Program-made: the position numbers and the translations under genes
Shown: positions 8,735 through 57,004 of the stretch, one piece after another
How the letters are laid out: each line of letters starts with the position of its first letter
Position numbering within the stretch: position 1 is the stretch's first letter
From: Gemmatimonadota bacterium
Lineage (GTDB): Bacteria > Gemmatimonadota > Gemmatimonadetes > Gemmatimonadales > Gemmatimonadaceae
Reading direction: 5' to 3'
Assembly (NCBI GenBank): GCA_021299375.1
Contig: JAJTGR010000027.1
Span: 1 to 64,000, forward strand
Length of the DNA stretch: 64,000 nucleotides
The notes under the pieces: model-generated
Databases searched by the model: none
The model's input: only the letters and a program-made list of their open reading frames with translations
What the model was told of the DNA's origin: nothing

Positions 8735-8797
8735 GGCAGCGCCGAGACACGACGTGAACGACCCCGAACCGTTTCTTCTCCCACCCATCGTGCAGGA

Positions 8798-8844
8798 CCC
8801 CGACTCCCGCCGGCGCACCACGCGCTTGCGGGAGTTGGGGTTTT
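8798..8844 (+). terminator. Intrinsic terminator after the pilin gene
   Basis: A 13-bp stem (8798-8810 with 8828-8840, one G-T type mismatch) closes a 17-nt loop and is followed directly by TTTT at 8841-8844. It lies 64 nt past the pilin stop codon. It also argues that the next gene starts downstream of it. Confidence 0.75.
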
Positions 8845-8882
8845 CGCATGGGTGTCGCGAATTCCGCCTGCGGCGGGAGGGG

Positions 8883-9260
8883 ATGATCCACGCCATGGAC
8901 GGTGGGCTGTGGCTGCACCGTCATGTGTGGCAGGGTTGTCCGCTGGTGCACCTGGTGAGTACCGATCGGGCACGCCTGGTGGCGTACGGTGAGGCCTGCG
9001 GCCTCCCCATCGCCCGGCTGCAGTACAAGCCGCTCAAGGATCCGCGCACCGGAACGCGCCGGGAGGCGTGGCACTGGGATCTGGGCGGGCCGGTGTACCC
9101 GCCCGTGGATGCGCGGCTGCTCGAGACAACGATCGGCGGCTCCCGGGACGGGGGTACCCAAGGCGGCGGTTCCCCGAACGGCGGTAGGCCGAACGGCGGT
9201 ACCCCCGACGGCGGTACTCCCAACGGCGATACGGAAAGCGGAGCGATGGAGATGACGTGA
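8883..9260 (+). CDS. Small hypothetical protein with C-terminal GGTPN repeats (DUF4031-like?)
   Basis: 125 residues from the ATG at 8883. The body ('PLVHLVSTDRARLVAYGEAC' ... 'AWHWDLGG') faintly resembles DUF4031 proteins, which carry HLVS/T-D and HYD/HWD motifs; this is a weak visual match only. The last ~40 residues are seven five-residue units ending GGTPD-GGTPN-GDTES, encoded by 15-nt tandem repeats. The frame stays open upstream to a GTG at 8754, but the pilin terminator lies inside that extension, so a start after it is preferred. ATG at 8895 is another option. The convergent acyltransferase ends with the same repeat. Confidence 0.55.
   Translation: MIHAMDGGLWLHRHVWQGCPLVHLVSTDRARLVAYGEACGLPIARLQYKPLKDPRTGTRREAWHWDLGGPVYPPVDARLLETTIGGSRDGGTQGGGSPNGGRPNGGTPDGGTPNGDTESGAMEMT
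9135..9239 (+). repeat. 15-nt coding minisatellite, seven units
   Basis: Seven consecutive 15-nt units of consensus GGCGGTACCCCGAAC, in frame, encode pentapeptides GGSRD, GGTQG, GGSPN, GGRPN, GGTPD, GGTPN and GDTES. Outer units are more degenerate than inner ones. The same unit occurs in opposite orientation at 9334-9378. Confidence 0.9.
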
Positions 9261-9297
9261 TGGGTACCCGCAGGGCGTCAGGACGGCAGTATGCGGA

Positions 9298-10752
9298 TCA
9301 CACCGTCTCCATGCCGTCGTGTTCACGGCCGCCGTTCGGGGTACCGCCGTTGGAGGTACCGCCTTTGGAGGTACCGCCGTACGTCACGCCGGGCGCTGCC
9401 GTCAGCTGTTCGAGTTGCCCCGCCTCCTGTCTGATCGCGTCTGCCTCCGCCAGGAGCGCCTGCTGGAGCGAGGGGTTCCGGCGGTACGTGAAATAGGCTC
9501 GGGCTCTCGCTCTGGCGCGGCGGGTGCGGTCGCCGTATCGCAGGTCGCTGCTCGCCGAGGGCACCAGCGTCAGCAGGAACGCCGCCGCCCACCACGGGCC
9601 GGCGATGAGCCACACGAGCGTGGTCTGCGCGCCATAGGCCACGAGCACGAGGATCAGGCCGATGACGAGCGTGTTCATCGCCGGCTCGTCTCGGCTCCGC
9701 ACGTTGCGCAGCGCCAGACGCCGTGCGAGCTGGATGGGCAGGACGTGTGTGATCCGGCCCCAGAGCCCGACCGGCGCCAGCAGCCCGGCCAGCAGCGCCT
9801 CCCGCACGGCGAAGCGCATGCCTGGCGCCGCCGCCGCGCTGATGCCGACATCGTGCACGTCGAGTCGTCGCGCGTCGAGGTCGGCACGGAACCGGCGGAC
9901 ACGCGCCTCGAACGCGGAGGCACGCGCCTCGAGCGCGGCATCGCCCTGTGCGCGCACCGAGGCCAGCCCGCGGTCGAGACGGCGAACGATGGCGAGCGTC
10001 CGCGCCAGTGGCGTTTCGCCTTCGCCGAGCGTCGGCGGCGGATCGAGCAGGGCGGCGAGCGTCCGCCCCACCAGCTGCAGCCGCTCGGCGTCTTCCGCCG
10101 ACGCGAAGTTGAGCGTGACCGCCGCGAGCCGGGTGGCCACCAGTTGCGTCATGGCCGCCACGGTGCGCTGTCCCACCGGGAGGGCGTCGAATTCGAGCGG
10201 CTCTCCAACTTGCAGCAGGATGCGCGACCGGGGCTGCTCCTTGTGCTCGAAGAGCAGACCGACGGGCACGACGCGCAGGCCGGTCACCCCGAGCTCGGTG
10301 TACGCGTGCAGCGCCATGCGCGCGAGCCCCGTGCGCAGCGGCGCCAACTTCGGGTCGTCATGGCTCTTTCCCTCGGGGAAGATCACGACGGCACTTCCCG
10401 CGGCGAGCGCCCGGGCGACGGCGTCGAAGGACGCCTGGTTGCGCGACAGGTCGATCGCGCCGCCAGATGACCCCGCGCCCTCGTCGCTGGCCCGTCGCAG
10501 CGGCACCACGCCCACCCCTGTCAGACACCGCGCGACCAGCGGATTGGCGAAGAGCGTGGCCTTGGCGGTGAAGCGGACACGGCGCGGTGCGCACCAACCC
10601 ACTACCATGGCGTCCACGAGCGCGTTGGGGTGGTTGACGGCCAGAAACACCGGCCCGCCCCGGGGAATCCGCTCGAGGCCCGTGGTGGTGATGCTGCGAT
10701 AGTACCAGCGCAGCGCCACGCCGCCGACCAGTCTGAGCAGCCCATACAGCAT
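9298..10752 (-). CDS. 1-acyl-glycerol-3-phosphate-acyltransferase-like protein (PlsC family)
   Basis: 484 residues. The N-terminal half is a lysophospholipid acyltransferase domain: 'AVNHPNALVDAMV' (catalytic His/Asp block, with five residues between H and D rather than four) and 'VVIFPEGKSHDDP' (substrate-binding FPEG). The C-terminal half has Arg/Ala-rich helices and two or three hydrophobic segments ('LVIGLILVLVAYGAQTTLVW'). The protein ends in GGTSK-GGTSN-GGTPN-GG repeats shared with the convergent gene. It starts at ATG 10752, 17 bp after the MFS gene, so the two probably form an operon. A paralog with the same architecture is at 53400-54752. Confidence 0.83.
   Translation of the reverse strand: MLYGLLRLVGGVALRWYYRSITTTGLERIPRGGPVFLAVNHPNALVDAMVVGWCAPRRVRFTAKATLFANPLVARCLTGVGVVPLRRASDEGAGSSGGAIDLSRNQASFDAVARALAAGSAVVIFPEGKSHDDPKLAPLRTGLARMALHAYTELGVTGLRVVPVGLLFEHKEQPRSRILLQVGEPLEFDALPVGQRTVAAMTQLVATRLAAVTLNFASAEDAERLQLVGRTLAALLDPPPTLGEGETPLARTLAIVRRLDRGLASVRAQGDAALEARASAFEARVRRFRADLDARRLDVHDVGISAAAAPGMRFAVREALLAGLLAPVGLWGRITHVLPIQLARRLALRNVRSRDEPAMNTLVIGLILVLVAYGAQTTLVWLIAGPWWAAAFLLTLVPSASSDLRYGDRTRRARARARAYFTYRRNPSLQQALLAEADAIRQEAGQLEQLTAAPGVTYGGTSKGGTSNGGTPNGGREHDGMETV
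9334..9378 (-). repeat. 15-nt coding minisatellite, three units, inverted relative to 9135-9239
   Basis: Three 15-nt units, reading on the minus strand GGCGGTACCTCCAAA, GGCGGTACCTCCAAC and GGCGGTACCCCGAAC, encode GGTSK-GGTSN-GGTPN just before the stop of the acyltransferase. They are complementary to units of the convergent gene and could pair with them as a long stem. Confidence 0.9.
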
Positions 10753-19365: not shown

Positions 19366-19496
19366 GATGTCGGACTTCTGCGCTCGCTCCGGATTCGCAC
19401 ATCCGGCTCCCGCGGATGTCGGGCGGCATCTGTGCGTGCTGAGTGAACCAGAGGTCCGAATCCGGATCGCGCCTCAGAAGCCCGAACTCCGACATC
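19366..19496. repeat. Imperfect inverted repeat downstream of the Uma2 gene
   Basis: Arms at 19366-19397 and 19457-19496 begin and end alike (GATGTCGG ... ATCCGGATTCG on one strand, its reverse complement on the other), with an 8-nt insertion in the second arm. The CCGAA/TCCGA motifs recur on the far side of the Uma2 gene at ~20254-20398. It lies between two convergent genes and may also act as a terminator. Confidence 0.6.
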
Positions 19497-20170: not shown

Positions 20171-20471
20171 CAATGCATTGCGCGTGGGACCACGCGAGTG
20201 CGCCCCATCACACGCCGAGCCGTGATCTCCGAGCTCGACCATGGCGACTCCGACTTCAGACCTCTGAGCCCGATCCGGCTTCCCACCTCCATCATCGTCT
20301 GAGGTCAGGATCTTCAGTCCGCTGTGCGTCTGCATACGCCATCGGATGCCGGTATCGAAGTCCGAATTCCGATCGGGCTCGGAGGTCCGAGGTCTGAGCA
20401 GGAACGGCGTGAGAAGAACGCCCAAACGCAAGACCTCCATTTCCCCCCACCGCGCGCATAAACTGCGCGCC
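20171..20471. repeat. Gap between Uma2 and tex with palindromic repeat
   Basis: This 301-bp divergent gap holds an imperfect inverted repeat (about 20254-20278 with 20369-20398) built from CTCAGACCTC and GAGCCCGATC motifs and their complements. These resemble the CCGAA/TCCGA-rich repeat on the other side of the Uma2 gene. Promoters of both genes must lie here, but no convincing -35/-10 pair is visible. Confidence 0.55.
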
Positions 20472-29554: not shown

Positions 29555-29584
29555 CGGCGGCGGGTGTGTGAACTGATCACACGA

Positions 29585-29645
29585 AGAAAAGGAGAACGGG
29601 AGAAAAGGAGGGCAACCTGCTCCGTTTCTCCCGTTCTCCTTTTCT
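29585..29645. terminator. Bidirectional terminator with 21-bp perfect stem
   Basis: 29585-29605 is perfectly complementary to 29625-29645 (A/G-rich arm, AGAAAAGGAGAACGGGAG core), with a 19-nt loop that can pair further. It sits between the convergent tldE and dipeptidase genes and has T-rich or A-rich flanks on both strands. Confidence 0.8.
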
Positions 29646-29648
29646 CTG

Positions 29649-29708
29649 TGTGGTCGGTTCAGTATCCGAAGGCTTCGCTGTGGTCGGTTCGGTAGCCGAA
29701 CGCTTCGC
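29649..29708. repeat. Two tandem 30-bp repeats at the end of the dipeptidase gene
   Basis: 29649-29678 and 29679-29708 are direct 30-bp copies with three differences, both starting TGTGGTCGGTTC and ending GCTTCGC. The second copy ends exactly against the dipeptidase stop codon (29709-29711). Confidence 0.8.
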
Positions 29709-39966: not shown

Positions 39967-40522
39967 AGATCAGATTCCGGTTCACGAGGGGGAAGGAACC
40001 AACGGAGTCACCGCCTTCTATGCTACCCCGGAAACGCCACTTCGTCACGCTCCGCCGTACTCCTGGCGCACCGTGTGGAAGGTGGATGTGCACTGTTCAA
40101 TCAAAAATACAATCATCATCAATACAGTATTCGGTCACTATCAGATCATCAAAATACAAAACACCAAAACTCGACAAGAAGTCGAATCCGCTCTCCCTGG
40201 CGAAATGGCGAAGAGCGATCCCGTTGGAATCCAGCAGGTATCGCGCGGCCGCAGGCCGCGCCCTGATATCACCGGACCGCGAGCCGATGAGAGGTCATTC
40301 GGGGCAAGGCCTACACCACACAGGCGTCAGCGCGAACCGACGGTCCAACCGGGTGCGCGGCCTGCGGCCGCGCGATGACTGCCGGATAGCAACAGGAGGC
40401 ACCGCCGCCGGAGCGACTCGGTCGCCCGACGGCACGATGCCGTGCGCACGGCGGAACGCATCACCACCGCCGACCCATCGTTCGCTGGCGCACCTCTATA
40501 TAGACGCGTCGGGATCTGCCGC
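39967..40522. other. Intergenic region with AT-rich island and paired palindromes
   Basis: A 556-bp gap between the SIMPL gene and mnmG. About 40090-40185 is strikingly A/T-rich for this window, with runs such as TCAAAAATACAATCATC and AAAATACAAAACACCAAAAC. At 40240-40376 two GC-rich hairpins face each other. No DnaA box (TTATNCACA) was found and no convincing gene; the open frame across it has no coding character. Confidence 0.7.
40240..40376. repeat. REPIN-like pair of inverted palindromes
   Basis: Two 22-nt arms, 40240-40261 and 40355-40376, are perfect reverse complements. Each contains its own hairpin, GCGCGGCC-gca-GGCCGCGC and GCGCGGCC-tgc-GGCCGCGC. The 93-nt spacer is not repetitive. 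This is the architecture of a REP doublet (REPIN). Confidence 0.75.
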
Positions 40523-53399: not shown

Positions 53400-54752
53400 A
53401 TGTCCCGCCGACTCGTGTCCTGGGTAGCCGCCCGCTGCCTGCGCTGGTTCTACCGCGCGCATCGCATCATGGGGCGCGAGCGGGTGCCGGCAACCGGTCC
53501 CGTGCTGCTGATCGGGAATCACCCGAACGACCTGCCGGACGTGATCGCCGGGCTGTCCACCACGACGCGGCCGGTGCGGTACATCGCCACGGTGTCGGTG
53601 ACGAGCTCCGCGGCGGCGCGGCGCACCTACGAGGCCATGGGGGTGATTCCGGTGGCCCGGGTGCGGGATGCCCGGGCCATGAAAGCGCGCGGGGTGGACA
53701 TGGTGGCGGTGAATGCCGCGGCGGCGGCGTTGGTGGTGCAGGCGCTGGCAGGCGGCGACGTGGTGGGGGTGTTCCCGGAAGGCGGCGTGCACGACGTGCC
53801 GGAAATCGGGCGACTTCGCACTGGTGTCGCTGATATGGTCCTTCGCTATCTGCATGCTGACGCAAAAAACGATGTCCATATCGTGCCGTTCGGCCTGCAG
53901 TATGAGGCGCCGCGGACACCGGGGAGCGATGTGATCGTTCAGGTGGGGGAGCCCTTCTCGCTTCGGGCGTGGTTGCAGAGCCAGCCCGCGGGCCAGACCG
54001 GCGCTGCGGCGCTGACGGCCCGCTTTCGCGAGGCGCTGCGCGCGGTTACCCGAAACGCCGCGACCTGGGAGGAGGGAACAACGCGGGACGAACTGGTGGC
54101 GGCCCGTGCCGCACAGCTGGCGCCGTGCGACCCACTTGCAGCCGCGCCCGCGCTGGTGGCACACGCGCAGCGGGTGGCCGCTGCCGCCCACGCCGACGGT
54201 CCGGGCCCGCATGCGGTTCGTCTCCGAACGGTGGCCCATTCCTTGGCCCGCGCCGTGGAGCGTGCCGGCGGCATTGGCACCTCGGCGCTCGACCACGCCC
54301 GACTGCTGTATGCGCTCGACCTGCAGCGACAGCCCGATCCCGTGCCGAGGGGGGCACCGTGGACGGGGCTGCCCGCCGCACTGATCGGCGGCGTGATGCA
54401 CGCGCCGGCGTGGTGGCTGGTCTGGCATCTGGCCCATCGGTCTGCGAAGGCCCGCGCCGACGTCGTGGCGCGCAGCTTCGTACCCGGGCTGTACATCATG
54501 GTGGCCTGGTATGGGCTGGTCACGCTCGCTGCCGCCGGCGCGCTGATGGCGTGGGGGCGCTCGCCGCTGTGGGCGCTGTTCCTGCTGGTGACGCTCCCGC
54601 GCTTCGGCGATCTGGCTATGGGGTGGCGGGCACGGTACCGGGCGTATCGTCTGGTGGCGCGTGTGCAGGGCTGGTCGACCCCGGAGCGGCAGGCGTTGTG
54701 CGCCGCCGCCGCTGCGCTGCGCGAGGCGTGGGAGGCCACGCCACTCGATTAG
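53400..54752 (+). CDS. PlsC-type acyltransferase with C-terminal membrane domain
   Basis: 450 residues, paralogous to 9298-10752. Motifs: 'LIGNHPNDLPDVIAG' (catalytic block with five residues between H and D), 'VVGVFPEGGVHDVPEIGRLR' and 'IVPFGLQYEAPRTPGSDVIV'. The C-terminal half has hydrophobic segments ('YIMVAWYGLVTLAAAGALMA' and the next 'SPLWALFLLVTLPRFGDLAM') followed by an Arg-rich helix, as in the paralog, but without GGTPN repeats. Probably a lysophospholipid or glycerol-phosphate acyltransferase at the inner membrane. Confidence 0.85.
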   Translation: MSRRLVSWVAARCLRWFYRAHRIMGRERVPATGPVLLIGNHPNDLPDVIAGLSTTTRPVRYIATVSVTSSAAARRTYEAMGVIPVARVRDARAMKARGVDMVAVNAAAAALVVQALAGGDVVGVFPEGGVHDVPEIGRLRTGVADMVLRYLHADAKNDVHIVPFGLQYEAPRTPGSDVIVQVGEPFSLRAWLQSQPAGQTGAAALTARFREALRAVTRNAATWEEGTTRDELVAARAAQLAPCDPLAAAPALVAHAQRVAAAAHADGPGPHAVRLRTVAHSLARAVERAGGIGTSALDHARLLYALDLQRQPDPVPRGAPWTGLPAALIGGVMHAPAWWLVWHLAHRSAKARADVVARSFVPGLYIMVAWYGLVTLAAAGALMAWGRSPLWALFLLVTLPRFGDLAMGWRARYRAYRLVARVQGWSTPERQALCAAAAALREAWEATPLD

Positions 54753-56876: not shown

Positions 56877-57004
56877 GATCACGCAGAGGCAAAGAGGCAG
56901 GGAGGCAACGACATCGATGGGTAGGCGTAGTTCCGATTCTTGCATTGACACGGCGCCAAACTCGTGATGTCGTTGCCTCTTTGCCTCCACGCTTCTGCGT
57001 GCTC
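56877..57004. repeat. Long inverted repeat with 39-nt arms
   Basis: Arms 56877-56915 and 56966-57004 are imperfect reverse complements sharing ends GA(T/G)CACGCAGA and GAGGCAACGACATC, with a 50-nt spacer. It occupies most of the gap between the ABC-F gene and the outer-membrane protein gene and is purine-biased. A similar purine-rich stem lies at 29585-29645. Confidence 0.8.

Follow-up and report, generated by a model that had tools for sequence, protein, structure and literature searches.

A long palindromic element across the 3' ends of a convergent gene pair, and its dispersed relatives at gene 3' ends in a Gemmatimonas-like bacterium

How did two convergent genes come to end in the same kind of repeat? 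In the window (the whole 64,000-nt stretch analysed), a small conserved plus-strand gene and a minus-strand acyltransferase both finish in repeat tails that face each other, with their stops 37 nt apart. The original prediction described a coding minisatellite of 15-nt units that the two genes share in inverted orientation, and suggested either a mobile repeat that captures 3' ends or a two-way terminator. We asked what the arrays are, where else they occur, and whether relatives carry them.

One inverted repeat spans both gene ends

The two facing arrays of 15-nt units, at 9135-9228 (+) and 9329-9380 (-), were recovered by Tandem Repeats Finder (4.6 copies at 9164-9232 and 3.5 copies at 9329-9380). 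They are not separate arrays but the arms of one inverted-repeat element of about 210 bp (9175-9261 and 9297-9383), with arms of 87 nt, a complementarity of 72% and a 35-nt loop (Table 1). The unit is shared by both arms, as predicted, but the outer plus-strand copies are degenerate. Also part of the element is the inner end of each arm (GATGGAGATGACGTGA and CATGGAGACGGTGTGA); the inner tail of the left arm resembles the family tail GGCGTCATGGAAACGACGTGATC. The region is predicted to fold at -151.6 and -137.1 kcal/mol for the two strands, with z-scores of -6.0 and -4.3 against dinucleotide shuffles, in agreement with the proposed long stem, which faces both genes. Rfam gave no match above the gathering score over 14 loci. 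The window family has no constant outer end, and no target duplication was seen when the flanks were inspected by eye; the motif GCTGYTCGAG, which flanks the window element, was considered as a duplication and dismissed, since both copies correspond to native codons in relatives.

Table 1. Positions of the two genes and of the parts of the element in the window
Feature	Position	Strand	Remarks
Small conserved gene	8754-9260	+	Codon-usage gene call; no Pfam match; ORF ends ...GGSPNGGRPNGGTPDGGTPNGDTESGAMEMT*
Left arm, outer part	9135-9228	+	15-nt units GGCGGTACCCCGAAC; outer end degenerate
Left arm, inner tail (..GATGGAGATGACGTGAT)	9229-9261	+	Contains stop TGA of the plus gene, 9258-9260
Loop	9262-9296	.	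From inverted-repeat detection
Right arm, inner tail (CATGGAGACGGTGTGATC)	9297-9328	-	Contains stop TGA of the minus gene, 9300-9298
Right arm, outer part	9329-9383	-	3.5 units GGCGGTACCTCCAAC / GGCGGTACCCCGAAC
Acyltransferase (PF01553)	9298-10752	-	Pfam 4.6e-13; ORF ends ...GGTSKGGTSNGGTPNGGREHDGMETV*
Whole hairpin element	9130-9390	.	RNA of either strand predicted to form a single long stem

Element-derived residues start after about position 9122 in the small gene and make up the last ~28 residues of the acyltransferase. Both genes stop at a TGA at the inner end of an arm (ACG TGA TGG and GTG TGA TCC); at this place other family members have CGTGATC. The arms are T-poor and thus largely free of stop codons, which accounts for the added protein tails; the unit of the window family is, from its sequence, stop-free in all three frames. 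Because the element spans both converging 3' ends, each gene takes a fresh stop signal from it and each protein an incidental C-terminal extension. The orthologues of the small gene in 15 genus genomes (68-82% identity) all finish ahead of the array. Alignments of the acyltransferase orthologues reach only residue ~400-420 of 435, and most of these proteins stop a few residues from there. As had been pointed out, the repeat is missing from the paralogous acyltransferase (53400-54752; C-terminus ...REAWEATPLD*). None of the 15 genus orthologues examined has the repeats, which bears out the proposal that the two genes acquired them.

The family and other long inverted repeats at gene 3' ends

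A search of the 4.48-Mb genome with the tandem pattern GGNGGNAC-N4-AANGGNGGNAC gave 28 matches, against 1 for the reversed control, and the unit is therefore not a chance occurrence. Inspection of the matching sites yielded about 17-20 loci that bear the window unit, among which certain paired contig ends probably represent a single locus. The copies share a layout in which outer units GGCGGYACCNNNAAC are followed by GGCGTCATGGAAACGACGTGATC and a loop, usually with the same again inverted. In nearly all tabulated arms the unit reads in the sense direction of the gene directly before it and points toward the loop. It commonly lies 10-70 nt past the stop of that gene, and most copies lie beyond stop codons. 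The inner tail had 16 matches at ≤3 mismatches and is largely species-specific. Seven contigs of the window's genome, G000 (C88, C41, C61, C64, C51, C40 and C109), terminate within an array; because contigs break inside arrays, assemblies probably under-count the copies. Further copies of the unit at gene 3' ends, together with the long stem that faces both genes, bring both suggestions of the original prediction, a repeat dispersed at 3' ends and a two-way terminator, close to what we found.

The same genome holds other repeats of this kind. A second 15-nt family is represented by an array of ACGGCGCGAGCTAGA that makes up an inverted repeat of ~240 bp and is flanked by convergent genes (locus L225, G000:C27:12311-12549). 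Arrays of ACGGCGCGAGCTNGA were considered as coding pentapeptide repeats, but the one at C27:12311-12549 forms an inverted repeat where two genes converge, so that some of them belong to another family. Within the window, a long inverted repeat (TGAACTGATCACACGAAGAAAAGGAG...) sits exactly between convergent genes at 29569-29661; the repeat at the acyltransferase junction of genome G003 is similar to it in composition. Additional long inverted repeats of the window lie at 19382-19472, 20248-20398, 40219-40397 and 56877-57004, the last of a family, GATCACGCAGAGGCAAAGAGGCAACGACATC, also found at G000:C1:142995 and C109:152752.

To survey the gaps between genes, we called genes by codon usage and scanned for inverted repeats without gaps. 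At a score of ≥22 over 856 kb, inverted repeats occupied 10 of 75 convergent, 6 of 257 co-directional and 0 of 102 divergent gaps, and at score 22 none was found within genes or in shuffled sequence. The contigs of this first survey were partly selected for carrying the repeat, and we therefore added a blind set of 315 kb and a count that excludes the family. With the window family excluded, over 1.17 Mb and at score 18, the counts were 11/107, 14/342 and 2/141, respectively (p = 0.004); in the blind 315 kb alone, too small a set, the convergent excess was not significant (p = 0.10). Rates per 3' end were similar in convergent and co-directional gaps, so that these are elements of 3' ends rather than of convergent gaps. 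About 4-5% of 3' ends have one. The 5' arm was purine-rich in 27 of 30 elements (A ~27%, T ~10%) drawn from several sequence-unrelated families, and tandem periodicity in the arms was clear for only some families.

Orthologous junctions, pairing and termination

Among named relatives, Gemmatimonas sp. UBA2094 and a Gemmatimonadaceae MAG are the closest. In 16 of the 16 genus genomes in which the pair was found (G000 included), the acyltransferase gene and the small gene converge. A long inverted repeat occupies their junction in four (G000, G003, G021 and G029), with a different sequence in each; nearly all the remaining junctions are gaps of 15-90 nt without a hairpin, and two have a longer unrelated stretch. 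Two further junctions (C36 and C77) behave in the same way: there, the sister-clade genomes G006, G009 and G017 have in common a different family, and G029 carries at the C36 junction the same family as at the acyltransferase junction. At an orthologous junction in G005 and G015 the element is kept with a different number of units. Each sister-clade genome carries at least 40 copies of that clade's family. Of 25 distinct sampled copies, convergent gaps held 11, co-directional gaps 13 and a divergent gap the remaining one; 24 adjoined a 3' end.

Is the stem itself selected? Among 25 elements of the sister family, arm identity was 81.9% within and 80.1% between elements (p = 0.04), and matching double changes numbered 61 against 45.5 ± 6.8 expected. 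For the five arm pairs of the window family, the comparison of likeness within and between elements gave p = 0.13. The arms are barely more alike within than between elements, and these figures lend weak support to a stem under selection for pairing. Compensatory change, which had been expected to be strong, was not so in either family.

The flanks of the listed elements contain no T-run or U-tract next to the arms, so that these elements depart from the intrinsic terminator defined by a GC-rich hairpin plus U-tract. In a strict scan, hairpins with a U-tract followed only 1 of 678 genes. Rho is present in the host genome and, with some 4-5% of 3' ends carrying an element, the element is not a general terminator. 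Two strong Rho matches occur in one genome, at G000:C4:57871 and C24:10855, one above and one below the family cut-off. The literature searched gave no account of terminators in Gemmatimonas, nor of these features in combination.

Explanations and known systems

We consider it somewhat probable that the window holds a long palindromic element of a lineage-specific, dispersed 3'-end family, with a probable role as a two-way terminator or 3' stabiliser. It would behave as a palindrome of the REP/MITE type that is retained at transcript ends. Its anatomy, dispersal, 3'-end position, lineage-specific gain and independence of reading frame are shown by the analysis; we infer that it is mobile and that its hairpin acts in termination or stabilisation. 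Each arm comprises an outer tandem array of 15-nt units and a conserved inner tail beside the loop. In this Gemmatimonas-like bacterium the element was gained where the two genes converge; neither native stop is left, and each gene runs through its own arm to the TGA at the inner end. On transcription of either gene, the RNA past the loop would fold into a long hairpin, which may end or insulate transcription and protect the 3' end of the mRNA. More tentatively, each Gemmatimonas lineage might make its own long palindromes with T-poor arms, which would repeatedly colonise the same convergent junctions, act as two-way terminators free of a U-tract and sometimes rewrite the C-termini and stops of both genes.

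A functionless, selfish, non-autonomous palindromic repeat of the REP or MITE kind is quite possible, if not our preferred reading. Its 3'-end bias would arise because insertions elsewhere were purged, the protein tails being tolerated damage. The families are lineage-specific, with tens of copies, the same junctions were gained by different families, and pairing conservation is weak; this slight enrichment of pairing-preserving changes keeps a tolerated selfish repeat a serious rival. The Y1 (RAYT-type, Y1_Tnp) transposase domain PF01797, however, was absent from G000 (95.9% complete), where control profiles matched, and the window family shows neither fixed outer ends nor a visible target duplication. 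Moreover, a purine-rich polarity common to sequence-unrelated families would not be expected of unrelated parasites.

Growth in place at ordinary small terminators, by replication slippage and hairpin template switching, would need no transposition, apparent dispersal being due to gene conversion. Consistent with this, the number of units varies between orthologous copies (L086 and L088). At the C36-orthologous junction, G017 (L256) has the spacer between its arms in the opposite orientation to that in G009 (L255) and G006 (L258), which points to recombination between the arms or to re-insertion. This explanation is nevertheless unlikely, given the 15-90-nt orthologous junctions without any hairpin and the full-length copies of ~150 bp that the sister clade carries at dozens of sites.

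It is very improbable that the GGTPN tails are a selected coding minisatellite useful to both proteins. Both ORFs do remain open and have similar end tails, but orthologues lack the repeats and most copies lie past stop codons. Five genes enter an arm, in three different frames: GGTxN (both window genes and C77), ..QTAAPQTAS (C21) and ..EQRHREQRHR (C42). The tail peptide is thus incidental, and frame-independence largely refutes the coding minisatellite as originally proposed. Inverted DNA-uptake sequences that double as terminators, as in Neisseria and Pasteurellaceae, are known to pair up in tail-to-tail regions, but they generally number ≥1,000 per genome (PMC1852404), a copy number that refutes this reading against the 16 matches to an inner tail that is, besides, largely species-specific.

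As a comparative example, the locus shows a hairpin repeat that was acquired between neighbouring genes and supplies new protein ends to both. It directs attention to long hairpins as a class of transcript-end structure in a phylum in which termination of transcription has received little study, and accounts for unusual low-complexity C-termini in annotated proteins and for contigs that break during assembly. Pneumococcal BOX elements are likewise stem-loop repeats with a variable number of internal modules; their sequence is unrelated, and here the modules are of 15 nt and lie in both arms. REP and BIME sequences of the GTAG and CGTC superfamilies are dispersed palindromes, mostly of convergent and unidirectional gaps near 3' ends, that are thought to act as RNA hairpins, and CGTC REPs too lack a dedicated RAYT transposase (PMC3733652). 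The window-type elements are also dispersed and mostly adjoin 3' ends. In contrast to REPs, which are 20-40 bp long with a tetranucleotide tag, they have long arms (~40-110 nt) of 15-nt tandem units, with CGTC within the tail rather than in an unpaired end tag and, in G000, no RAYT domain found. Rickettsia palindromic elements and MITEs (ERIC, Correia/NEMIS) resemble them as stem-loops of ~100-200 bp, with open frames that fuse to host genes (PMC2229807), but here no fixed terminal repeats were seen, the arms are tandem arrays, and in the window a single element closes the genes on both sides. Every bacterium surveyed has its stem-loops concentrated at 3' ends and in convergent gaps (PMC1590033), positions shared by bidirectional intrinsic terminators and our elements, whose stem is much longer and has no U-tract; paired uptake signals are also known to serve as terminators (PMC1852404). 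Thus, the 3' bias of stem-loops and REPs and the fusion of palindromes to host frames are already known, and the variant features are arms of tandem units, the turnover, from one species to the next, of the sequence families found at a given junction, and the fact that both C-termini are rewritten together. Taken with the lack of an Rfam match and of a RAYT-type domain, these parallels and differences lead us to regard the element as a variant of the dispersed 3'-end palindrome that is not a REP and probably not a MITE.
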